Both the position numbers and the translations under genes were made by a program. A stretch of 24,756 bases of DNA from a virus. Location: positions 1 to 24,756 of the IMG/VR virus record IMGVR_UViG_3300005913_000088; one strand, written 5' to 3'. Shown here piece by piece: positions 3,896-24,573 of the stretch; position 1 is the first letter of the stretch, and every line of letters starts with the position of its first letter. The notes beneath the pieces were generated by a model. That model was given only the letters and a program-made list of their open reading frames with translations. It searched no databases and was not told the DNA's origin.

Positions 3896-5539
3896 ATGGT
3901 AAAGTTCGTCAACAGAGTTAAACTTAATTTGACCACTACAGGTACTGGTACAGTAACCTTTGGCTCTGTTGTCGCTGGCTTCCAGAGTCTTTCTGACGCC
4001 TCTGTTGTAGATTCTGACGTTGTAAGATATACGATTGAAAGTGGGACTAACTACGAGGTAGGAACTGGCACTATAGGACTGTCTGGTGGAACTTACACTA
4101 TGTCTAGGTCTCCTAGTTCTTCCTCCCAGAGTGACAACTCAGCTATAAACGTAGGTGGTGGTGCGGTATGCTTTCTTACCATGCTTTCAGAGGACATTGT
4201 TCAGGTCTTATCTGACTTAGATAATGTGTCCTCTGCCACACCCGCTGGTGGTCAAAACTTATCTTACGACTCAGGCACAAGTTCTTGGGTTCCCGCCACG
4301 CCTTCTGGCGGCATTACAAGCGTAGGTAACTATGCAGGTCTCCCTGCGTCTCCTAACGAAACAGACCTAGCTTGGGTACAGGATACTAAGTCGTTATACA
4401 TCTATGACGGCACTGAGTGGGACAGGTTTTACACCGACACAAATGCAACACCTGACTGGGATACTCCACCACCAACTGAGCCTCAAACTCTGTCCACAGC
4501 GGGTACTGCAACTGTTCAAACTGTTGTGGCAAGTGATCCAGAAGGGTTTCCGATTGAATACACGTTTGACACTAGCCCAGCAAATCCCGCACAGGCAACT
4601 ATCTCTAACACGGCAGGGGTGTTTACCATTACACCTTCTACATCAGTGTCAGACGAGGGTGAGTTCACTTTAAGATACAGGGCATCAGACGGTATTCACT
4701 CCAATGCTAGGTCTACACTATATATACTCTCTTTTTATAGTAACCCTGATATTTCTAACGCAATCTATGACAGCAAAAGTTTCATCTTCAACCCACCAGA
4801 ATCAAGTGTTTTCTGTGTCCGTTTTAATACAAATGGCACAAAAATGTACTGCCTTGGGTACTCGACCGATAACGTATATCAGTTCTCTCTAAGTTCACCG
4901 TTTGATGTAAGCACGGCAGCCCCTTATGTCGCCTCTGGCGCAGGCGCTACACCATATTTTTATATCGGATCGCAAGACGGCCTCCCCAGCGGTTTTGACT
5001 TTAATACAGATGGCACAAAAATGTACATGATAGGCCGTCAGAATAAGAGAGTCTTTGAATACGACTTAAGTACTGGGTTCGATGTAACCACGGCAGTTTA
5101 TAACAACAACTACGCTGCTGTAGCTGGTCTCGTAAGCTCTCCCAGCGATATTCGTTTTAGCGCAACTGGGGATCGTATGTATGTCTGTGGCTACAGCACC
5201 GATAAGCTGTTTCAGATTGACCTGTCTACAAATTTTGATGTAACTACTCAGCAGTACAACGGTGTATTTATAAATCTTGCGTCTGCAGCATCGCCAACAA
5301 GCCTTTACCCATACGGTATCGCTTGGAACAAAACTGGCTCTAAAATGTATACGTGTGACAACTACAGGAATATGGTCTACGAATGGGATTTGACTATCGT
5401 GTTTGACATAAGTACGGCATCACAAGTTGCTACTTACGCTTCCAGTCACGACCCTCAGTCTATAACTTTTAGTACAGATGGTTCTAAAATGTTTGTCGTA
5501 AGTGGCACAGACGATAAAGTTCACCAGTATAGTGTTTGA
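3896..5539 (+). CDS. Fibre-like protein with C-terminal beta-propeller repeats
   Basis: This 547-residue protein has at least three parts. Residues 1-100 resemble the N-terminal virion-attachment region of many phage fibres: VKLNLTTTGTGTVTFGSVVAG, then a polar SPSSSSQSDNS stretch. The middle includes a short LAWVQDTKSLYIYDGTEWDR unit (about 160-180) and an Ig/cadherin-like segment (about 190-280, with ASDPEGFPIEYTF and ...FTLRYRASDG). Residues from about 300 to 547 hold five repeats, each containing an F/W-x-x-x-G-x-K/R-M-Y/F-like core at F310, F369, F421, W477 and F525, followed by a V-x-Q/E-x/W-D/S-L strand and FDVSTA-like turns. This is the pattern of YVTN/WD-type propeller blades. AAGGA at 3882-3886 supports the start. 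A sugar- or surface-binding adhesin is the natural guess. Confidence 0.65.
   Translation: MVKFVNRVKLNLTTTGTGTVTFGSVVAGFQSLSDASVVDSDVVRYTIESGTNYEVGTGTIGLSGGTYTMSRSPSSSSQSDNSAINVGGGAVCFLTMLSEDIVQVLSDLDNVSSATPAGGQNLSYDSGTSSWVPATPSGGITSVGNYAGLPASPNETDLAWVQDTKSLYIYDGTEWDRFYTDTNATPDWDTPPPTEPQTLSTAGTATVQTVVASDPEGFPIEYTFDTSPANPAQATISNTAGVFTITPSTSVSDEGEFTLRYRASDGIHSNARSTLYILSFYSNPDISNAIYDSKSFIFNPPESSVFCVRFNTNGTKMYCLGYSTDNVYQFSLSSPFDVSTAAPYVASGAGATPYFYIGSQDGLPSGFDFNTDGTKMYMIGRQNKRVFEYDLSTGFDVTTAVYNNNYAAVAGLVSSPSDIRFSATGDRMYVCGYSTDKLFQIDLSTNFDVTTQQYNGVFINLASAASPTSLYPYGIAWNKTGSKMYTCDNYRNMVYEWDLTIVFDISTASQVATYASSHDPQSITFSTDGSKMFVVSGTDDKVHQYSV
4823..5538 (+). repeat. Five propeller-blade repeats within the fibre-like gene
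   Basis: The repeat core starts at 4823, 5000, 5156, 5324 and 5468 (spacing 177, 156, 168 and 144 bases, all multiples of three). Copies 1 and 2 still match at the DNA level: 4823-4849 and 5000-5026 differ at one position over 27 bases. This indicates a recent duplication or gene conversion between blades. The later copies have diverged. A typical closed propeller needs 6-8 blades, so five may close with a strand from the preceding domain or form a five-blade ring. Confidence 0.7.
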
Positions 5540-5551
5540 GGCGATAGATAG

Positions 5552-7549
5552 ATGCTAGGTTTTTACCCCCTTGCTGGAGCCTCTATAGGTGGTTCTGCTG
5601 TTGTCAGAGAAGTGATATTAGCAGATGTAACAGGGGTTCAGGCTTCTGTAACTTTAGGAGTTATCTCCCTATCTACTGACGCCACTATATCTGATCAAGC
5701 CGTAAGAAAGCCTGAAACTGTTTTCTTCGATGACCCTAATAATGACGGTGTTGGAGTTGTACGCAGGAATGAGCGCAACTTTTACACTTGGACAAACGCT
5801 TTTATCTTGGGTATGCGGCCTCAGATATTTGAGACTGGCCCAGACAAAGACAATACAACAAGTGGTCCCATTTGGGATGAATCGGTAGCTGGTGACAAAG
5901 CTCTTTCTGTACAAACTAAGATAACCTCTGAGTTAACCTCTGACCCGATAGTGTCTCAGTCCTCATGGGTTCCTTTGGTTAACGGTGACTACACCTACCC
6001 AGCTACCTATGAAGCTGCTCTTGGTTATGATGCTAGTAACTCCTACCCTGTCACGGTAAACCTAAACCACTTGCCCTCTGAGTCCATTGTTAACAATGCT
6101 GCAACTATCAGCACTCTTGGTGATCCACTCTTAACCACCTTAGTTTTTCCTGCTAATGACCCTACCTTGTTTAATGCAATTGTTGGACAAGTTCGCACAA
6201 TAAACACTTTTGATACGACTGACACTGTTACATACTTTTACAGCCTTATCAACGGACAAGTTGGTGAGGTACAGTGGCCTAACGAAAGCAAGCACTACCT
6301 CTTACAAAAGTACGACACAGACAAAGGTTTTGACCTTGGCACTTTAAGCACTAACACTTTTGTACGTACTAAAGACCACCCTTTTCAGGGTTCCGCTTAT
6401 ACTGCTTACGGCTTTCGATTACAGCCTCAAGTCACTACTGCTAATTTCCCTGATGGTACTCCTGTTTCCCAAGAGCATACGCTTTTAGTTACCTCATCTT
6501 TAGGGGTAATTAAAGTTAATATAAGCAAGGAACTTCCTGCCCTTCCAGTTACTGTTGGTACTAACTTAGGTATAAAAGCTAATGTTACTGCTTCTGTATA
6601 TAAAGAAATCATTACCCCACCAACAGACCCAGACATACCTGTAGAGGAACAAGACCTTACACCCTTTAAGGTAGGCTTTGATCTAACCGCAGGACTACCT
6701 GACCCTCAATGGTACTTGAGTACGTCTAGGGTAGAAATTATAGCGGAGCCTAATCAGCCTGCTAATGATGTAATATACCCTTACGCCTCTCGTTCACCTA
6801 CTGCTGGACCTACACAGACAGACTTTGACTTTGCAATATCTCTTGGTGTCTTAGATGGTCCCATAGGTGTTGACCAACCTGTAGATGGCTTCGATACCAC
6901 CTTAACTTTAGGTACTCCTACCCTTAAGTCTTTAAATACCTTAGCTGTCGATTCTCAAGTTGTCACTTTAGGTTTAAATCTTTCTGGTATAGAGGCCCAA
7001 CCTACAGAAATTATATACCCCTCTGACAGCATACTTCTAACTCCAAGTCTGGGAAGTATCGAAACTCTAGCCACCTCTAATGCTGTATGTACAAGTAGGC
7101 TTACCACCCTTGGATTAGGCAACATAACTTTTGCTGCTAACGCTAACACTGCACCGTCTTCTGGTGTCGAGTTTACAGGAGCAGCAGGTGAGATTACCTT
7201 TACGGTTGATGCTAACCTCTTCCCTGATGGCCTAGAGTTTGTAGCTAGTGTAGGCATAGCTGGCGTACCAGCACTTGCCCGAATAACAACTGCTGGTTTT
7301 GCTACTGTCACCATAGGTGCGGTGGGAGTAGGGGCTGTTAAGCTAGTATCAGGGTTTGGGATTGATGTTCAGTTTGGTCCTGACCTTACTGTTACGGGAT
7401 TCAAGTTTGACTTTGAGGCCATTAAGCACTTGTACAATGTACTTAGACAGGTCCACGGTGGATTTCCTGCTAACAGAACTGCAAGACCTACGTTTAGTAG
7501 CCCAAGGAACATTAGACCTCCCAAACCATCAAAAAATTTAGCGGCATAG
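5552..7549 (+). CDS. Large beta-rich structural protein of unknown function
   Basis: This 665-residue protein opens with MLGFYPLAGASIGG, an opening I associate with structural proteins of marine phages. A strand motif of the form T/S-L-G recurs at residues 34, 430, 452, 472, 499 and 519, and a related IYP(Y/S) motif occurs twice (near 410 and 490). The long stretch 50-400 is a different, Asn/Asp/Thr-rich region with many aromatic residues. The C-terminus is hydrophobic, then basic and proline-rich (RPTFSSPRNIRPPKPSKNLAA). No catalytic motif, signal peptide or membrane anchor is obvious. It lies 12 bases after the propeller gene and 11 before the next, so all are probably co-expressed. Virion surface protein or fibre partner is inferred from context only. 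Confidence 0.5.
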   Translation: MLGFYPLAGASIGGSAVVREVILADVTGVQASVTLGVISLSTDATISDQAVRKPETVFFDDPNNDGVGVVRRNERNFYTWTNAFILGMRPQIFETGPDKDNTTSGPIWDESVAGDKALSVQTKITSELTSDPIVSQSSWVPLVNGDYTYPATYEAALGYDASNSYPVTVNLNHLPSESIVNNAATISTLGDPLLTTLVFPANDPTLFNAIVGQVRTINTFDTTDTVTYFYSLINGQVGEVQWPNESKHYLLQKYDTDKGFDLGTLSTNTFVRTKDHPFQGSAYTAYGFRLQPQVTTANFPDGTPVSQEHTLLVTSSLGVIKVNISKELPALPVTVGTNLGIKANVTASVYKEIITPPTDPDIPVEEQDLTPFKVGFDLTAGLPDPQWYLSTSRVEIIAEPNQPANDVIYPYASRSPTAGPTQTDFDFAISLGVLDGPIGVDQPVDGFDTTLTLGTPTLKSLNTLAVDSQVVTLGLNLSGIEAQPTEIIYPSDSILLTPSLGSIETLATSNAVCTSRLTTLGLGNITFAANANTAPSSGVEFTGAAGEITFTVDANLFPDGLEFVASVGIAGVPALARITTAGFATVTIGAVGVGAVKLVSGFGIDVQFGPDLTVTGFKFDFEAIKHLYNVLRQVHGGFPANRTARPTFSSPRNIRPPKPSKNLAA

Positions 7550-15421: not shown

Positions 15422-15711
15422 GTGATGAATCTGGAACCACCGAGAGAGAACACTTGGAACAAGTACAAAGGCAGACAGGATTAGAACTTAAAGAATTGGA
15501 TGGACCCGACTTCCCAACTCTTGTGGCTCATATCTGGTCTGCCTTTATTTCATTAAGCAACTCAAGAACTGGTGGCTTTAGTGGCCCTAACCCGATAACA
15601 TACGAACAAATAAAAGCATGGAAAGAACTAACTGACACGCCTATGACAGCTTGGGAAGTAGAAGCGGTTAAGAGGCTTGACGGAGTTTATATGAGGGTAA
15701 ATAATGGCTGA
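15361..15711 (+). CDS. Tail assembly chaperone T-part, made as a -1 frameshift G-T fusion
   Basis: This frame is probably not an independent gene. Its only starts downstream of the slippery site are weak, such as TTG 15454. The -1 frame is open from 15349, and translation entering at 15361 gives YQGLIDDLVEFAEFNFKLNQ, then a charged linker and 85 further residues ending GVYMRVNNG. With the first 129 residues of the upstream protein the fusion would be about 245 residues. In lambda-type phages the G-T form helps load tail tube subunits onto the tape measure. The end overlaps the tape measure gene by 8 bases. Confidence 0.75.
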   Translation, partial: YQGLIDDLVEFAEFNFKLNQRDESGTTEREHLEQVQRQTGLELKELDGPDFPTLVAHIWSAFISLSNSRTGGFSGPNPITYEQIKAWKELTDTPMTAWEVEAVKRLDGVYMRVNNG

Positions 15712-18436
15712 TGATGTAATCTCAATTAAGGTCTTAGCTGACTCTACTCAGGTAGATAAACTTGAGAAGAGGGCTAAGGTATTAGAGAACAGAATAAAGT
15801 CATTAGCTGCTTCTATTGCTAAGGGTAGGATAACTACAGACCAGTACAGTAAAGCTGTAGGCATTATTGCATCAGAAATGCAAAAGGCTTCAGGTGGCTC
15901 TATAAAGGCAAGAAACGCCATTAACGAGTTTTCTCGTTCTACCTTCCAAGCTGCTAAAGCCGCTGACCACTTGTCGGATATGGCTGCTAAAGAAAACATC
16001 ATACGTCTTGAACAAATAAAGTTATACAAGCAAGCTAGAACAGATGCGGAACAGATGAACCGTATTAAGGATCAGGCTGTTAAGAAAGAGAAAGCAGCGG
16101 CTGATGCTGTAGCTAGGAACACAGCAGAACTAAGAAGGTTTAAGTCCAGCTATGATGCTGTATACTCTGCGGAACAGAAAAGACTAGGGCTTAAGAAGTT
16201 ACTTCGTGCAGAAGTTGCCGCTGGTAACATGACCCTTAGACAAGCTGGCACAGAGTTGTTAAACTACAGAAATAGTCTTAACCAAGTTAATGGCGCACTT
16301 GGAAACACTAGAAACAGGATGAACTCTGGCGGCATGGCTATGCAACAAGTCGGCTATCAAGTTGGTGACTTCTTAGTACAGGCACAGTCAGGAACTAACC
16401 TTTTTGTTGCATTTGGTCAGCAAGCCACACAGCTTGTAGGTATTCTGCCTATGGTAGCTACGCAACTAGGTTTAACTATGAGTGCGGCTATTGGTCTTTC
16501 TGCTGGGCTAGGTATAATTATTCCCTTAGCTACAGCCATAGGTGCTGCCTTTATGATGTCTAAAAGTAGTGCTGATGATCTCACTACCACTTTAGACGAA
16601 TTAGAAAATGCTTACGCTAAGATTGATTCTATAAACGATACCTTAGAGGTACAACTTGTAGGTACATGGGCTGCTGCTTCAGAGGGGGCAGACAACTACC
16701 TCAAAAAGCTAAGGGATGTAACACAAGAGTCTGCACTACAGGCTGGTAGAGACGTATTGACGAGGAATGCGGGTCTTCTGGCCCAGTTTAAAGCTGACCT
16801 ATTTGGTGGGGATGACACTTCTGGTATAGTGTCGCAGATGGATGAGAGTATAGAAGACTTACTTGCTGCAAGAGACAGACTGTTTAAACAGTATAACGAA
16901 ATCGTAATGAAAGGCGAACGGGGTGATAAGTTAAGACTAAAAAAACAAAGGGAAATTTATCCTGAGACAACGAGCCTCCTTACTGCAGCTAATGCTCTTG
17001 CACAAGAAAGAAAAGAGTTCCTAAATGTCTTTGCAAAAGGTACTACAGACGAAGAATCTGTAATACGAATACTAGCCCTTCGTGAGAAGTACGAAAAGTC
17101 TGGTGGCGATGCTATGCTTAAGCGTATAGATGGTATTATTACTGAACTTAGGCTAGAAGGTGAAATCACTGCTTATAGGAAAAAACTTGCTGACGATCAA
17201 GAGGAAAGAGATAGAGATAAAGCAGACGCCTTAGAAGAGGAAAAAAAGACCTTAATCCGCAATGCTAACATTATGGTTTCTTGGGGTAAACAAATAGCCA
17301 AGGGTCAAGCGGAAAGAGATAAAGCTAAGGCTGATGCTGAAAAAGAGTCTATAAGAAACCTATTACGTAACCACAACATTATGGAGTCTTGGGGAAAACA
17401 AATAGGTCAAGGGCAAAAGGAAAGAGATAAAGCAGCCTTGAAATCTGATAACGAAAAGACTCAGGCACAGATAGATAATGTAGATGCCCTTCTGCAAGCT
17501 GGTATAGAAGCCCACGAAGCTAGACTTCAAATGATCCAAGACGAGGCTAAAGAACTAAACTACTTTAACAACATCATGCTTGCTTGGCAAAACCAGATTG
17601 GTAGAGGGCAAAAGGAAAGGGACAAAGAAGGTCCAAAAGGCCCAAAACCAACAACTATGGAAGGCCCAATCAAGGCTCTGGAAAGACAGATAGAGTTAAG
17701 TAAGGCTTTGTTTGGCTTAGAGGGTGATGCACGTAGAGAACAAGAAGTCTATATGCAACTTAAGTTCCAGAACCAAGACGCTGACATTAAGGCTAAAGAA
17801 AGTCAACTAAGGTCTCTATCTGCACTTGTAGCGGAAGAAGAGAGAAGGACTAAAGTCTTTGAAGAACAGAGAGAGGTACAGAAGGAAGTAGCTGACACTA
17901 TAGCTAATGAAATGGGCAATGCCTTAATGTCTATGGTAGACGGTACTAAGTCCGTTAAAGATGCCTTTAGAGACATGGCTAACGATATCATTAAAGAACT
18001 GTACCGTATTTATGTTGTAAAACAGATCACAGGTATGATTAGTGGTGGTATAGATAGCTTTATGGGCTTTAATGCTTCCGCTAGTGCTAACGGCAATGTG
18101 TTTAGCAATGGAAACTTAGTACCATATGCTGATGGTGGTGTCGTAGGTGGCCCCACTTACTTCCCTATGAATGATGGTCGTACAGGTCTAATGGGAGAAG
18201 CTGGCCCAGAAGCTATCATGCCTTTGAAAAGAGGTAAGAACGGTAAGCTAGGTGTACAGGCAGAGGGTGGCTCTGGTGACGTTATTATTCATCAGAACTT
18301 TAACTTTACCGCTAATGGTGACGAGAGTGTTAAGAAGATTATAGCACAGCAAGCCCCAGCTATCGCTAACATGACTAAGAAGCAAATACTAGATGATCGT
18401 CGCAGGGGTGGTCAAATGAAACAAGCGTTTGGGTAA
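15704..18436 (+). CDS. Tape measure protein
   Basis: At 910 residues this is the second longest gene of the window. It is long, helical and charged, with a hydrophobic stretch near 230-285 (VGILPMVATQLGLTMSAAIG and IIIPLATAIGAAFMM). Its C-terminus is typical of tape measures (about 808-850: YADGGVVGGPTYFP, LMGEAGPEAIMPLKRG). Such proteins fix tail length and enter the cell envelope on infection. At about 0.15 nm per residue it predicts a tail near 135 nm. Three copies of a NIMxSWGKQIxxGQxERDK-like repeat occur at residues 522, 558 and 623. The start ATG 15704 overlaps the T-part by 8 bases, with GAGGG about 7 bases upstream. Confidence 0.92.
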   Translation: MADDVISIKVLADSTQVDKLEKRAKVLENRIKSLAASIAKGRITTDQYSKAVGIIASEMQKASGGSIKARNAINEFSRSTFQAAKAADHLSDMAAKENIIRLEQIKLYKQARTDAEQMNRIKDQAVKKEKAAADAVARNTAELRRFKSSYDAVYSAEQKRLGLKKLLRAEVAAGNMTLRQAGTELLNYRNSLNQVNGALGNTRNRMNSGGMAMQQVGYQVGDFLVQAQSGTNLFVAFGQQATQLVGILPMVATQLGLTMSAAIGLSAGLGIIIPLATAIGAAFMMSKSSADDLTTTLDELENAYAKIDSINDTLEVQLVGTWAAASEGADNYLKKLRDVTQESALQAGRDVLTRNAGLLAQFKADLFGGDDTSGIVSQMDESIEDLLAARDRLFKQYNEIVMKGERGDKLRLKKQREIYPETTSLLTAANALAQERKEFLNVFAKGTTDEESVIRILALREKYEKSGGDAMLKRIDGIITELRLEGEITAYRKKLADDQEERDRDKADALEEEKKTLIRNANIMVSWGKQIAKGQAERDKAKADAEKESIRNLLRNHNIMESWGKQIGQGQKERDKAALKSDNEKTQAQIDNVDALLQAGIEAHEARLQMIQDEAKELNYFNNIMLAWQNQIGRGQKERDKEGPKGPKPTTMEGPIKALERQIELSKALFGLEGDARREQEVYMQLKFQNQDADIKAKESQLRSLSALVAEEERRTKVFEEQREVQKEVADTIANEMGNALMSMVDGTKSVKDAFRDMANDIIKELYRIYVVKQITGMISGGIDSFMGFNASASANGNVFSNGNLVPYADGGVVGGPTYFPMNDGRTGLMGEAGPEAIMPLKRGKNGKLGVQAEGGSGDVIIHQNFNFTANGDESVKKIIAQQAPAIANMTKKQILDDRRRGGQMKQAFG
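17267..17630 (+). repeat. Three imperfect repeats within the tape measure gene
   Basis: Units begin at 17267, 17375 and 17570, each coding for asparagine, then I-M, a W-x-x-Q-I segment and G-Q-x-E-R-D-K. Spacing is 108 and 195 bases, both multiples of three, so each duplication kept the frame. The first two are closest (SWGKQI in both). Whole-unit gain or loss would change tail length in steps. Confidence 0.7.
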
Positions 18437-18445
18437 GGAAACCTC

Positions 18446-19036
18446 ATGGCACTAAAGACTGCACCAACTGATATAGGCTTTGCACAAATAACTCTTAGTG
18501 CTATGAACGCTGTTGCCACTTCTGAGTCTCCCTTTACTTATAAACAACAGATAGTACAACACACAGGTCAAGCATGGAAAGCCTCAGTTACCATACCACC
18601 TGTCAGGAGAGACTTAGGTGAGCCTTGGGTAGCCTTCTTGTTGTCGCTACAGGGGCCAGTTAATACTTTCCTCTTAGGTGATCCTAACTGTGTAGCCGCT
18701 AGAGGTACAGCAGAAGATGGTGACATAGTAGCAACGGGTACTGCTGGTGCTTCCTCTGTTACTTTAACTCTTAGTAATGGTGGAACACTTAAAGCTGGTG
18801 ACTACATACAACTAGGTGCCTCATCTACAGCTAGGCTACACAAGGTCTTAGCAGATATTTCTACTACAGGATCAGTGGATATATGGCCTAATCTTAAAGC
18901 TACCTATTCTAGTGCTGCTGTAGTTGTAGACAACGCTAAGGGTGTCTTTAGGCTAACAAGTAACGTACAGGATTGGCAGATAGGTAACTCTAGTACCTAT
19001 GGTATCTCCTTTGAGGCTGTAGAGGTAATTGTATAA
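18446..19036 (+). CDS. Distal tail-like minor tail protein
   Basis: This 196-residue protein directly after the tape measure probably forms the first ring of the tail tip. The N-terminal MALKTAPTDIGFAQITLSA is followed by WKASVTIPPVRRDLGEPW, then VNTFLLGDPN near 72-81. A central inserted beta segment (GTAGASSVTLTLSNGG, YIQLGASSTARLHKVL) is a pattern common in such tip proteins. The end (VQDWQIGNSSTYGISFEAV) closes the fold. Its slot corresponds to that of gene 12 in the Rhodobacter gene transfer agent order. The stop overlaps the next start in TAATG. No enzyme motif is seen. Confidence 0.65.
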   Translation: MALKTAPTDIGFAQITLSAMNAVATSESPFTYKQQIVQHTGQAWKASVTIPPVRRDLGEPWVAFLLSLQGPVNTFLLGDPNCVAARGTAEDGDIVATGTAGASSVTLTLSNGGTLKAGDYIQLGASSTARLHKVLADISTTGSVDIWPNLKATYSSAAVVVDNAKGVFRLTSNVQDWQIGNSSTYGISFEAVEVIV

Positions 19037-19593
19037 TGAGTAGAACTATCCCCTCGGTAGTACTTAATGCCCTAGACGATGATGTCATTAACCCTTTCTT
19101 TGCTGTAGAACTACTCTTTGATAGTCCTAACGAACTTAGGTTCTGGACAGGCGCAGGAGACCTTTCCTACGGTGGTAATACTTGGGTTGGAACAGGAAAC
19201 CTTCTAGCTATCTCCGCTATAGAAGAGGGTTCAGATTTAGCTGTTAAGGGTGCTACACTAACTTTTAGTGGTATAACAACAGATATACTTTCTCTAGCCC
19301 TTGCAGAGCCTTATCAGGGGCGTGTGTGCAATATCTACCTTGGTATAACCTCTGATGAAACTGCGCTAACACAGTTATTCTCTGGTTACATGGATCAGAT
19401 GAATATATCTGAAAGTGCAGATGAAGCCGCTATTGAGTTAACTGTAGAGAATAGGCTAATAGACCTAGAGAGACCTCGTATTGCTAGATATACTTCTGCG
19501 TATCAAAAGTCTGTATATGTTGGTGATCTTGGCTTAGACTTTGTAGAAGACCTACAAGATAAAGAAATAGTCTGGGGGAGGTCTGTTGGTTAG
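19036..19593 (+). CDS. Minor tail protein, hub-like (DUF2163-like)
   Basis: This 185-residue protein occupies the second slot after the tape measure. Patterns include NPFFAVELLFDSPNELRFWT, YGGNTWVGTGNLL, AISAIEEGSDLAVKGATLTF and LIDLERPRIARYTS, ending in FVEDLQDKEIVWG. These resemble the baseplate hub-type proteins of gene-transfer-agent-like tails, but it is shorter than the DUF2163 protein I recall there. The stop overlaps the TTG start of the next gene by 8 bases, an economical coupling. The family match is from memory and should be treated as likely rather than certain. Confidence 0.6.
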   Translation: MSRTIPSVVLNALDDDVINPFFAVELLFDSPNELRFWTGAGDLSYGGNTWVGTGNLLAISAIEEGSDLAVKGATLTFSGITTDILSLALAEPYQGRVCNIYLGITSDETALTQLFSGYMDQMNISESADEAAIELTVENRLIDLERPRIARYTSAYQKSVYVGDLGLDFVEDLQDKEIVWGRSVG

Positions 19594-20047
19594 TTTTCAG
19601 CAAGAGTTTCTGTGCCAAGTTAAGGATGAGTGTATCCCCTTGATAGAAAGACACTGGGAAGAGATAGCCATTAACAAAGATCGCATTAAGCTAAACCCAG
19701 ATTGGGACGCTTATGACTTACTAGAAGATTCAGGTAGGCTTACTATATTTACCGCCAGAAGTTCTGGAAAGCTAGTTGGTTATCTTGTAGTCTTGCTTGG
19801 CAACAACATACACTACAAAGACCATGTGTTTGCTTCTAATGACATAATATACCTCCATCCAGATTACCGTAAAGGTATGACAGGTGTTAAGTTAATAAAG
19901 TTTGCAGAAAAGTATCTAAAGAAAGATGGGGTATCAGTTATGGTTATGAATACTAAGGTACACAGCCCGTTTGACATAATACTTGAGAGGCTGGGCTTTA
20001 CGCCTACAGAAAAACTTTACTCTAAGTACATAGGGGGTCACTCTTAA
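19586..20047 (+). CDS. GNAT-family N-acetyltransferase in the tail tip operon
   Basis: This 153-residue enzyme has a GNAT fold. The beta-4/alpha-3 acetyl-CoA motif is clear: DIIYLHPDYRKGMTG (about 86-100), with R95-K-G-M-T-G as the pyrophosphate loop, then VKLIKFAEKYLKKDG. The C-terminal motif LERLGFTPTEKLYSKY (about 133-148) is also typical. The substrate is unknown. The start is TTG 19586, with GGAGG 4 bases upstream, and no later ATG would keep the fold. The stop overlaps the J-like gene start in TAATG. In related tail clusters this slot usually holds an NlpC/P60 peptidase. The protein could modify a phage tail protein or a host target. Confidence 0.8.
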   Translation: MVSFQQEFLCQVKDECIPLIERHWEEIAINKDRIKLNPDWDAYDLLEDSGRLTIFTARSSGKLVGYLVVLLGNNIHYKDHVFASNDIIYLHPDYRKGMTGVKLIKFAEKYLKKDGVSVMVMNTKVHSPFDIILERLGFTPTEKLYSKYIGGHS

Positions 20048-22884
20048 TGGCTGTTGTAAGTGCTGCTTATGCTGTAGGGGGTTTTACAGCCGCCGCTGGT
20101 GTTGTAATTCAGTCGGCAGTATTTCGTTATGTAGTTATGTCTGTTGTTACAAGCCTAATTATGAGGTCCTTGGCTCCGACCCCTACTGCACCTACATTTG
20201 GTGGGGGTAATAAGAGTAATAGGGGTTATAACGTAACACAGACAGGGGCTGCATTAGACCATCAAGTTATATATGGTAAAATGAGAGTTGGCCCAGTACG
20301 GGTGTTTGATGCTACTACAGGTGCAGACAATATACGACTACACAGAGTGTTAGCCTTTGCTGGACATGAGATAGAGTCTTTTGAGCAGATATACATTAAT
20401 GATGAAGTAGCAACTATAGACGGTAGTGGTAATGTTACCTCTCCTAGTCGTTACAGTGGCCTAGTAACAATCAAAGAACACTTAGGTACAGCAGATCAAG
20501 CTGCCGACAGTAGTTTAGTTAGTGCTGTGTCTGGTTGGACAGGGAACCATAGACTTCGTGGTATTGCTTATTTGTACTGTAAGTTTACATACGATGCAGA
20601 TGCTTTCCCTAATGGTGTCCCTGAGATTACTTCTGTGATAAAAGGTAAGAAAGTATACGACCCAAGAACCACAACAACTGTTTGGTCTGATAATCCTGCA
20701 CTGTGCATAAGAGACTATCTTGCGAGTACTGGTTATGGCTTGGGAGAAGCCTCTGCCAACATAGATGACACAACTTTTACTACTGCTGCTAATATCTGTG
20801 ACCAGACTAACACAGATGCTGGTACAACACGTTACACAATGAATGGTGCTTTCACTACGGGGTCTACACCTGTAGACTTCTTGCAAGATGCCATAACTTC
20901 TATGGGTGCTACCCTGTGGTATAACCAAGGTGCATGGAAGGTTAAAGCCGCTGCGTGGACTGCTGCTTCAGTTAACTTTGATGAGAACGATCTTAGGTCA
21001 GGAATAAGCCTAGCTACTAGGAACTCCCGTAGGGACAACTTCAACAATGTTAATGGTACGTTTAGAGGTGACGAAAGTAATTGGCAAGTAACAGACTTCC
21101 CACCTGTAACTAATGCTGCCTTTGTTACTGCTGATGGTGGTCAAGAATCTTCACTAGACCTAGACCTTACTTTTACTGACAACTCTATAGAGGCTAGAAG
21201 AATAGCTAGGATAGTCCTAGAAAGGAATAGGCAGCAGCTTACTGTTGAGGCGTCCTTTGGTCTTAGGGCTTTCCAAGTACAGACAGGTGACAACATAACC
21301 CTAACTAACACTAGACTTGGTTGGACTAACAAAGAGTTTGAGGTTATGTCTTGGAACTTTGCCTCTGTGGACGAGTACGACTTACAAGTGAACATGGTGC
21401 TTAGGGAGATTTCATCTAGTGTCTTTGATGAGGTTGACGATGGTATAGTCTACGAAAGAGATAATACTACTTTGTTGTCTCCTTTCACAGTCCCTGAACT
21501 TGGCATAAACATCAGTACTGAACTCAGGAGAGTTAAAGGTAAGACCCTTGGTGTCCTACTGCTTGATATAAACAACACAAGCAACATTATGGATACAGCA
21601 GAGGTACAATTCAGAAAGACAGGTGCAACTAACTTTACAGCTATAGCAACTATGGGTGCCTTTGTGGGTACAGATAGGGTTGAAGTTGTTGGCGTAGAGG
21701 ATGACTTCTATGACATAAGGGCTAGGGCCACTAACTCCCTTGGTGTTCATGGGGCATACAACACTATAAGTAACTACTTTGTAGAAGCACTAGGTGCGCC
21801 ACCAGCAGATGTAACTAACTTTGATGGTAACGTAGTAGGCAGTAACTTGTTCTTAACTTGGACACCAGTTACCGACTTAGACTTAGCCCACTATATCATC
21901 AGGTACTCCCACTTAACTAGCGGTGCAGTCTATTCAGAAGCTGAAAACATAGCACAAGTTCCTGTTGGCAGTAGTAACCTTGCCATACAGAGTGCTGGTG
22001 TAGGTACATACTTCATTAAGGCTGTAGATGAGACTACAAGCGGTGCTAATGAGTCTGATAACCCTGCTGTATTCGTCGTTACCTCTATAGGTATTGGAGA
22101 CCTTAATGTTGTAGCCACACTAACAGAGAACCCATCCTTTGCTGGTGTTAAATCTAATGTGGTAATAAATGATGATGACAGCTTAGAGTTAGCTACAATA
22201 CCCCTGTTTGATGATGCTACGGGTAACTTTGATGATAGGTCTGGATTATTTGATGACTTTACAGGTTACGCATCTTCTGGAATATACTACTTTAGCAATG
22301 ACCTTGACTTAGGTCAAAAGTATACAAGCCGCTTAAACTTCTCATTTACCAGTATAAGGTTTGATAGGACAGACCTATTTGACAGTGCTACAGGTAACTT
22401 CGATGCTAGATCAGGTGTATTTGATGGAGACCCTACAGCCTTTGGGGACACATCTGTTTCCCTACAGTTAAGGCATACAGACGATGATCCTACAGGTACG
22501 CCCACATGGTCTGATTGGCAAGCATTCTCTGTATCTGATATATCCGCAAGAGCCTTTGAGTTTAGGTTAGTTATGACATCAACAGATACTAATGTTACCC
22601 CTGTTGTAAGTGCTTTGTCGGCAACAATAGATATGCAGGATAGGACTACTTCTGGTAATGACATAACATTTACAGGAACAACTAATGTTACCTTTGATGA
22701 TGCCTTTGCAGCTACACCAGCTATAGGACTATCCTTAGCTAACTTAACTGATGGTGACAGATATACAATAACAAGCAAGACCCGAACTGGGTTTACTATT
22801 AACACTTTTACTGGGGGATCAGCAAGCACCAATGCAGTGACCCTAGACTATGTAGCTAAGGGCTACGGAAAGGAACTAACGTAA
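20047..22884 (+). CDS. Tail tip/host specificity protein (J-like)
   Basis: This 945-residue protein is the probable central tail tip that contacts the host receptor. Residues 1-42 are hydrophobic (GGFTAAAGVVIQSAVFRYVV, then TSLIMRSLAP), as in J-like proteins, and could insert in the host membrane. The conserved core follows: GAALDHQVIYGKMRVGPVRV, then NPALCIRDYLASTGYGLG and FLQDAITSMGATLWYNQGAW. A fibronectin III-like domain lies near 584-680 (LFLTWTPVTDLDLAHYIIRY). The C-terminal part carries two LFD-x-A-T-G-N-F-D-x-R-S-G repeats (720 and 777). It is coupled to the GNAT gene before it and the tail fibre after it by TAATG. Confidence 0.88.
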   Translation: MAVVSAAYAVGGFTAAAGVVIQSAVFRYVVMSVVTSLIMRSLAPTPTAPTFGGGNKSNRGYNVTQTGAALDHQVIYGKMRVGPVRVFDATTGADNIRLHRVLAFAGHEIESFEQIYINDEVATIDGSGNVTSPSRYSGLVTIKEHLGTADQAADSSLVSAVSGWTGNHRLRGIAYLYCKFTYDADAFPNGVPEITSVIKGKKVYDPRTTTTVWSDNPALCIRDYLASTGYGLGEASANIDDTTFTTAANICDQTNTDAGTTRYTMNGAFTTGSTPVDFLQDAITSMGATLWYNQGAWKVKAAAWTAASVNFDENDLRSGISLATRNSRRDNFNNVNGTFRGDESNWQVTDFPPVTNAAFVTADGGQESSLDLDLTFTDNSIEARRIARIVLERNRQQLTVEASFGLRAFQVQTGDNITLTNTRLGWTNKEFEVMSWNFASVDEYDLQVNMVLREISSSVFDEVDDGIVYERDNTTLLSPFTVPELGINISTELRRVKGKTLGVLLLDINNTSNIMDTAEVQFRKTGATNFTAIATMGAFVGTDRVEVVGVEDDFYDIRARATNSLGVHGAYNTISNYFVEALGAPPADVTNFDGNVVGSNLFLTWTPVTDLDLAHYIIRYSHLTSGAVYSEAENIAQVPVGSSNLAIQSAGVGTYFIKAVDETTSGANESDNPAVFVVTSIGIGDLNVVATLTENPSFAGVKSNVVINDDDSLELATIPLFDDATGNFDDRSGLFDDFTGYASSGIYYFSNDLDLGQKYTSRLNFSFTSIRFDRTDLFDSATGNFDARSGVFDGDPTAFGDTSVSLQLRHTDDDPTGTPTWSDWQAFSVSDISARAFEFRLVMTSTDTNVTPVVSALSATIDMQDRTTSGNDITFTGTTNVTFDDAFAATPAIGLSLANLTDGDRYTITSKTRTGFTINTFTGGSASTNAVTLDYVAKGYGKELT
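22204..22428 (+). repeat. Duplicated Asp-rich FD repeat in the tail tip gene
   Basis: Segments 22204-22257 and 22375-22428 code for LFDDATGNFDDRSGLFDD and LFDSATGNFDARSGVFDG, 57 codons apart. Phase is kept and many bases are shared. The Asp/Gly pattern could bind metal ions such as calcium, or form a turn-rich linker. This is the variable C-terminal part of the host-recognition protein. Confidence 0.6.
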
Positions 22885-24192: not shown

Positions 24193-24573
24193 ATGGGATA
24201 CAAACTAGGACTACGAAGTAAGCAGAACTTGTCTGGGGTACATCCTGACATGGTTGCTGTTGTTACAAGAGCGTTAGAGATTAGTGAAAAGGACTTTAGT
24301 GTAACTGAGGGTGTTCGTAACATTGAACGTCAGCGTATGCTTAAGAAGACAGGCAAGTCAACTACACTTAAGTCTCGTCATCTGACAGGACATGCAGTAG
24401 ATGTTGTACCTTATCCTGTGTCGTGGGAGTGGGACGAGTTCTACCCTATTGGTGATGCTATGAAAGCTGCTGCCAAGGAGTTAGATATTAAAATTGTTTG
24501 GGGTGGCGATTGGAAGAAGTTCCCGGACGGTCCTCATTTTCAGCTAGACTGGAAAGCCTACCCCTGTGACTAG
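24193..24573 (+). CDS. Endolysin, M15-family D-Ala/L-Ala-D-Glu type peptidase
   Basis: This 126-residue enzyme carries the M15 zinc peptidase signature: SRHLTGHAVD (61-70) with H63 and D70 as zinc ligands, and PDGPHFQLD with D112 as likely catalytic residue and H115 as third ligand. WGGDW (103-107) is also typical. It resembles T5-type L-alanyl-D-glutamate peptidase endolysins and should cut cell-wall peptide crosslinks at lysis. No signal peptide is present, so release depends on a holin. AAGGAG at 24181-24186, overlapping the previous stop, is a strong ribosome site for ATG 24193. The exact bond cleaved cannot be told from sequence alone. Confidence 0.88.
   Translation: MGYKLGLRSKQNLSGVHPDMVAVVTRALEISEKDFSVTEGVRNIERQRMLKKTGKSTTLKSRHLTGHAVDVVPYPVSWEWDEFYPIGDAMKAAAKELDIKIVWGGDWKKFPDGPHFQLDWKAYPCD

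Follow-up and report, generated by a model that had tools for sequence, protein, structure and literature searches.

The window, a 24.8-kb record (24,756 nucleotides) from a marine phage, combines head genes with a tail module of the siphophage type, and its portal is 83% identical to the portal of Roseobacter phage CRP-6. In the tail module the tape measure gene is followed by genes for a distal tail protein, a hub-like protein, a GNAT-fold acetyltransferase, the tail-tip protein J, a collar fibre, a fibre assembly protein, and an M15 endolysin (Table 1). The PHROG matches bear out the order tape measure, distal tail, hub-like protein, enzyme, and J, which an earlier note on this DNA had proposed. 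The TTG start codon of the GNAT gene is immediately preceded by GGGGGAGG, and the start of the gene overlaps the hub stop by eight bases (19586–19593). At the other end, the sequence TAATG (20045–20049) contains the TAA of the GNAT gene and the ATG of J, with one base common to both. Judged from these two overlaps, translation of the GNAT gene is probably coupled to both neighbours, as had also been noted. Between the portal and the head protease region (3896–7549) two large ORFs of 547 and 665 aa gave no PHROG match at E 0.001.

Table 1. Tail-module features; positions refer to the window.
Feature	Position	Strand	Evidence and remarks
Tape measure	15704–18436		
Distal tail protein	18446–19036	+	phrog_1302, 9.5e-27
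Hub-like tail protein	19036–19593	+	phrog_2048, 9e-43; 3' end overlaps GNAT start by 8 bases
GNAT-fold acetyltransferase gene, 153 aa, TTG start	19586–20047	+	Pfam/PHROG, AF2 model and Foldseek, dN/dS, conserved Hub-GNAT-J position
Family-specific N-terminal block NKDRIKLNPDWDAY (about residues 31–44)	19676–19717	+	Alignment: I34, L36, N37, P38, W40 nearly invariant; Y43 invariant
Variant motif A, D86–G100, Y-R-K-G-M-T-G, putative acetyl-CoA pyrophosphate loop	19841–19885	+	Alignment and model
Tail-tip protein J	20047–22884	+	phrog_5616 / phrog_31; Met-Ala start, no charge up to residue 26
J N-terminal hydrophobic segment, residues 1–50, proposed substrate region	20047–20196	+	N-terminus comparison
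M15 peptidase endolysin	24193–24573	+	PF13539, 8.7e-13; phrog_465, 2.6e-60

The assignment of the enzyme as a clear GNAT protein, likewise made in the earlier note, was confirmed. The protein matches Pfam Acetyltransf_1 above the curated cut-off (E 1.4e-6) and, with residues 44–148, PHROG_1249 'acetyltransferase' (E 1e-14). An AlphaFold2 model calculated from a 41-sequence alignment (mean pLDDT 87.7) predicts a GNAT fold with the topology b1-a1-a2-b2-b3-b4-a3-b5-a4-b6/7. All 50 PDB matches listed by Foldseek for this model are acetyltransferases (TM ~0.6–0.67), and among the matches listed are AAC(3), HP0935, Naa60, NatC/Naa30, and RimI. N-terminal acetyltransferases (RimI, NatC/Naa30, Naa60) are mixed with aminoglycoside acetyltransferases among the best matches; the predicted fold makes no choice between protein and small-molecule substrates. 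A profile search of solved structures returned general GNATs only, and phmmer with the single protein gave no significant match to solved structures. Orthology to RimI was ruled out (TIGR01575, 13.6 bits vs a cut-off of 86.4), and so was sequence-level homology to HlyC (no PF02794 match, hhalign 0.2% against the HlyC of HTVC111P). Against seven homologues dN/dS is 0.06–0.18, with dS saturated for the four distant ones; the ORF is therefore a real gene under purifying selection.

In the family alignment Y43, T56, R58, G65, Y66, A83, R95, and E142 are invariant, and D86, G97, G100, N122, T123, K124, Y145, and K147 are nearly invariant; D86 is a candidate for the general base. Motif A of the family reads R-x-G-x-[TA]-G, the canonical form being R/Q-x-x-G-x-G/A. 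In the model a strand (residues 81–90) is followed by a helix (residues 99–113). Because the first canonical glycine is not conserved and the position just before it holds a nearly invariant glycine, binding of acetyl-CoA by the window protein is likely but not certain. The structure prediction proposed earlier as a check gave the expected fold; the variant form of the acetyl-CoA motif was seen in the alignment.

The earlier note had regarded the GNAT as standing in place of a tail peptidase. The cultured relatives examined carry either a DUF6950 protein (PF22262; CRP-6, CRP-406, and Lebethron) or a HlyC-type acyltransferase (HTVC111P) in the hub–J slot. We take DUF6950, which is unrelated to the GNAT in fold, to be NlpC/P60-like from its WGxxDC motif, and to this extent the comparison with a peptidase held. 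The slot proteins keep the cysteine of this motif and have Ala in GVA[LM]GI at the expected position of the catalytic His. Without the conserved His they are not clearly peptidases, and to call DUF6950 an active peptidase is not justified by these sequences. Such slot proteins, with WGxxDC and without the NlpC/P60 histidine, so that a peptidase function appears doubtful, are those of CRP-6 (L092, 7436–7855) and of L233–L312. Furthermore, a search with the hub sequence brought up 74 new contigs, and in 42 of them no gene lies between hub and J, mostly with a gap of 12 bp. These contigs are close kin, with distal tail proteins up to 99% identical and J proteins 57–87% identical. With so many close kin lacking a slot gene, the slot is optional and swappable, rather than the site of a one-for-one exchange as had been supposed. 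Since relatives hold DUF6950, a HlyC-type enzyme or nothing, neither the GNAT nor a peptidase is essential. A GNAT relocated elsewhere was not found in the 43-kb record L114, CRP-6, CRP-406, or HTVC111P. Nor was an NlpC/P60 or other peptidase domain, which the note had considered might lie elsewhere in the tail module, matched in the slot or in the tail ORFs scanned with Pfam and PHROG; the M15 endolysin is the sole peptidase match in the tail/lysis region.

Further observations were made on the slot and its surroundings. In Pelagibacter phages (L094:6522–6929 and L200–L231) a putative acyltransferase of the RTX-toxin-activator type (HlyC, PF02794) is encoded immediately 5' of J. Two GNAT-less contigs, L116 and L118, are 99% identical to the window in the distal tail protein and only 81% in the hub (compared over 18446–19593), which gives a sharp recombination boundary between these two genes. 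CRP-6 (L092), which has been described with a short tail (PMC6918029), carries the siphophage set of tape measure, distal tail, hub, and J genes.

Same-slot GNATs, which had been suggested as a search, were found readily. Eighty viral contigs with the GNAT were retrieved, about 74 of which read Hub-GNAT-J, while one ends at the contig edge and five are of podophage type (L053, L067, L069, and L070 were examined, and L068 was assigned from a near-identical match). The Hub-GNAT-J position is kept down to 31% GNAT identity. In the podophage contigs a 54–62% identical GNAT with a degraded motif A lies between tail-tube-B-like and gp14-like genes, that is, in the slot of gp13 in T7. A GNAT in the gp13 slot is also present in Zobellviridae isolates and in Pseudomonas phage PfAn1, and Limnohabitans phage DC33, MW202640, and Variovorax phage VPv81 carry a GNAT and a small protein with a hydrophobic N-terminus near terminase/portal-like genes. 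The PHROG_1249 phage GNATs, including those of Zobellviridae and Autographiviridae, thus resemble the window GNAT in sequence family, size, and place beside tail or ejection genes. However, the isolates with annotated neighbourhoods are of podophage type, with the gene 5' of a gp14-like gene or near terminase/portal, whereas the window has the siphophage-type hub–J context. No cellular relative was found among 84,980 species genomes scanned, and hence no named host or prophage.

GNAT genes beside virion genes in podophages are already known. The GNAT of the SIO1-like phages (cobaviruses; pc40 in SIO1), which adjoins internal virion proteins, has been proposed as the equivalent of T7 gp13 and linked to morphogenesis (PMC6775973); it differs from the window GNAT in its podophage context and its distant sequence without the KDHVFA block. 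In phage YA3 a DUF2833 acetyltransferase is annotated 5' of internal virion protein B (PMC7326022). T7 gp13 itself (L096:7308–7724; PF11090, an internal virion protein) is, like the window GNAT, the product of a small single gene 5' of an ejection or tail-tip gene, in this case directly 5' of gp14. The fold predicted for it (model pLDDT 93) is that of a GNAT, without the glycine motif for acetyl-CoA, and the top PDB matches are all GNATs (E ~1e-4). The gene at the gp13 position of P-SSP7 (L328:11532–11978) looks similar. Direct sequence homology between T7 gp13 and the window GNAT was rejected (no BLASTP match, no PF11090 match, hhalign probability 1%), and the GNAT of the window lies between hub and J, not between tail tube B and gp14. 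In virions of phiPsa17 the counterparts of T7 gp14–16 were present by mass spectrometry, and gp13 was not among the proteins reported (PMC4517105).

The N-terminus of J covaries with the content of the slot. J proteins encoded behind a GNAT start with Met-Ala-[Val/Ile] and have their first charged residue at a median position of 42, which leaves an uncharged stretch of about 40 residues. When no slot gene is present, J starts with Met-Gly-[Leu/Ile/Phe] and has a Lys at position 5–6; behind the HlyC-type gene of pelagiphages it starts with Met-Gly and has Lys near the N-terminus. The J proteins following DUF6950 are charged in the CRP-6-type group and have an uncharged Met-Pro start in CRP-406 and Lebethron. 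Among 87 non-redundant J proteins Ala2 was found in 33 of the 35 with a GNAT and in none of the 52 others (Fisher 6e-22, before phylogeny); the two GNAT-associated exceptions have Thr2 and Phe2, respectively. The mean number of charged residues at positions 2–25 in these 87 representatives is 0.2 with a GNAT, 2.6 with an empty slot, 5.1 with HlyC, and 6.2 with DUF6950. No comparable loss of charge was seen at the N-termini of the distal tail, hub, tape measure, and collar proteins; the second residue of the hub is mostly Ser with a GNAT and Thr without, leaving the charge unchanged.

In a tree of the J core, built without the N-terminus, GNAT-less J proteins are nested in the GNAT clade near the window. 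Loss of the GNAT, or loss and regain, therefore accompanied a changed J start. Slot content and J N-terminus go together in every one of the four independent pairs of the tree, giving p 0.125, with 0.05 out of reach for so few pairs. L323, an additional siphophage lineage, shows the pattern again with the J start MALVVGTAILGAGAS. In podophages with the same GNAT the product of the next gene starts with MAVSAALVVVAAVG, MAVQAVIAAAAVVG, MAVSTVYAISAVAA, and similar sequences. This parallel carries less weight because the gp35 ejection proteins of SP6 and phiKMV start with MAIGTALTAG and MAFWLPLLAAG without a slot GNAT, so that such N-termini do not need the enzyme, and because T7 gp14 starts with MCW.

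These findings suggest, short of proof, a chemical maturation by the GNAT of the protein that makes the first contact with the host envelope. The reading that we favour, tentatively and with somewhat less than even confidence, is that the tail tip is matured by an enzyme of the late phase, N-terminal acetylation of J being the most likely reaction. The GNAT, a phage-specific enzyme, would be made late, alongside the tail-tip genes, and would mature the infection apparatus without being a structural part of the virion. Removal of the initiator Met of J would expose Ala, and acetyl-CoA would donate an acetyl group to the alpha-amine of J, the product of the next gene, as it emerges from the ribosome. 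The acetyl group would cancel the sole charge in a long apolar segment, which may serve to insert into the host envelope when the DNA is ejected. In fold the window GNAT resembles RimI and other N-terminal acetyltransferases, and the exposed N-terminal Ala is the proposed substrate.

Several points speak for acetylation of J: the N-terminal acetyltransferases among the best PDB matches, R95, G97, G100, and D86 kept across the family, the conserved Hub-GNAT-J arrangement, the J N-terminus pattern and its recurrence in L323, the next-gene starts in podophages, and the HlyC-type acyltransferase in the pelagiphage slot. Against it stand the small number of independent changes (only four to five), the variant motif A of the window GNAT, and the two GNAT-associated J proteins without Ala2. 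Moreover, the degraded motif A in the podophage GNATs and in T7 gp13 points to a function without catalysis in these proteins. That a tail protein is acetylated, as the earlier note had put forward, is plausible, and the pattern at the J N-terminus makes it testable. A wider reading, to which we give little credence, is that the slot 5' of J is an acyl-modification slot, in which GNATs would N-alpha-acetylate an uncharged Met-Ala segment and HlyC-type enzymes would acylate lysines in Lys-containing segments. The HlyC-type enzyme of Pelagibacter phage HTVC111P and its kin is, like the GNAT, an acyltransferase encoded directly 5' of J; it shares no sequence similarity with the window GNAT.

Since the GNAT gene adjoins the J N-terminus, both could travel together by plain linkage. 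The block of hub, GNAT, and 5' end of J would then be exchanged by recombination, with the substrate of the enzyme unrelated. We consider this doubtful, though clearly worth weighing; it is not exclusive of the other readings and bears only on whether the J pattern means anything. The drop in identity between the distal tail and hub of L116 and L118 places breakpoints at the flanks of the block. Yet the association persists at roughly 30–50% GNAT and J identity as well as in L323, and N-termini of differing sequence and length are kept uncharged. Another possibility is a GNAT-fold assembly chaperone of the T7 gp13 type. It would bind the product of the next gene (J, or gp14 in podophages) at its hydrophobic N-terminus while the particle is assembled, might or might not retain some catalytic activity, and would be absent from the finished virion. 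This is rather unlikely in our estimation. The predicted GNAT fold of T7 gp13, with no evident cofactor site, agrees with this role, as do the position of gp13 5' of gp14, its Pfam label as probable scaffold protein, its absence from the proteins reported for phiPsa17 virions, and the published link of the cobavirus GNAT to gp13 and morphogenesis. The siphophage family, however, keeps the predicted acetyl-CoA site and the candidate catalytic residues, shows no detectable sequence-level homology to T7 gp13, and has close relatives that assemble J without a GNAT.

The patchy presence among close kin would also fit a host-directed accessory gene, a hitchhiker in the late operon whose product would acetylate, in the late phase of infection, a protein, RNA or small molecule of the host. 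Phage GNATs are usually listed as auxiliary metabolic genes in papers of the field, and host physiology is the target of Rac, a GNAT of phiKMV (PMC7552054). Unlike roaming accessory genes, the GNAT gene keeps its place between hub and J, or next to ejection genes, in phages whose tails are unrelated, and it covaries with the J N-terminus; we therefore think such a function unlikely. Very improbable, finally, is an effector packaged in the virion and delivered into the cell with the DNA. The neighbouring genes encode tail-tip or ejected proteins, but neither a delivery signal nor a fusion to a structural protein was seen, and with the counterpart gp13 not reported in virions containing gp14–16 (PMC4517105) the packaging considered in the earlier note is unsupported.

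That note had also called the role not commonly described for virion genes; in podophages GNATs beside virion or ejection genes are on record and have been tied to T7 gp13 (PMC6775973). We did not find the siphophage hub–J version described in the open-licence papers searched; the same is true of the swap between GNAT, HlyC, DUF6950, and an empty slot, the tie to the J N-terminus, and structural support for a GNAT fold of T7 gp13. The open-licence literature searched likewise yielded no paper on N-terminally acetylated phage tail proteins or on RTX-type acyltransferases in pelagiphage tails. Little is understood of how tail-tip and ejection proteins cross the envelope of Gram-negatives, or of what T7 gp13 and its equivalents do. 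A swappable enzyme slot, with contents from which the chemistry of the adjoining J N-terminus can be predicted, offers a cheap test of whether phages covalently modify these proteins. If J is indeed modified, an 'auxiliary metabolic' acetyltransferase would be recast as a morphogenesis enzyme. If true, the acyl-modification slot would represent a dedicated system, the first of its kind, for modifying the DNA-ejection apparatus of phages, common to long- and short-tailed ones.

Two minor observations concern other parts of the tail module. In the relatives L026 (291–3320) and L047 (915–2966) a fibre-like gene of 680–1000 aa and small genes lie between distal tail and hub. At the C-terminus of the window J, residues 878–937 weakly match an H-type lectin (PF09458, 20.5 bits, below the cut-off), and this lectin-like stretch is a possible receptor-binding domain.
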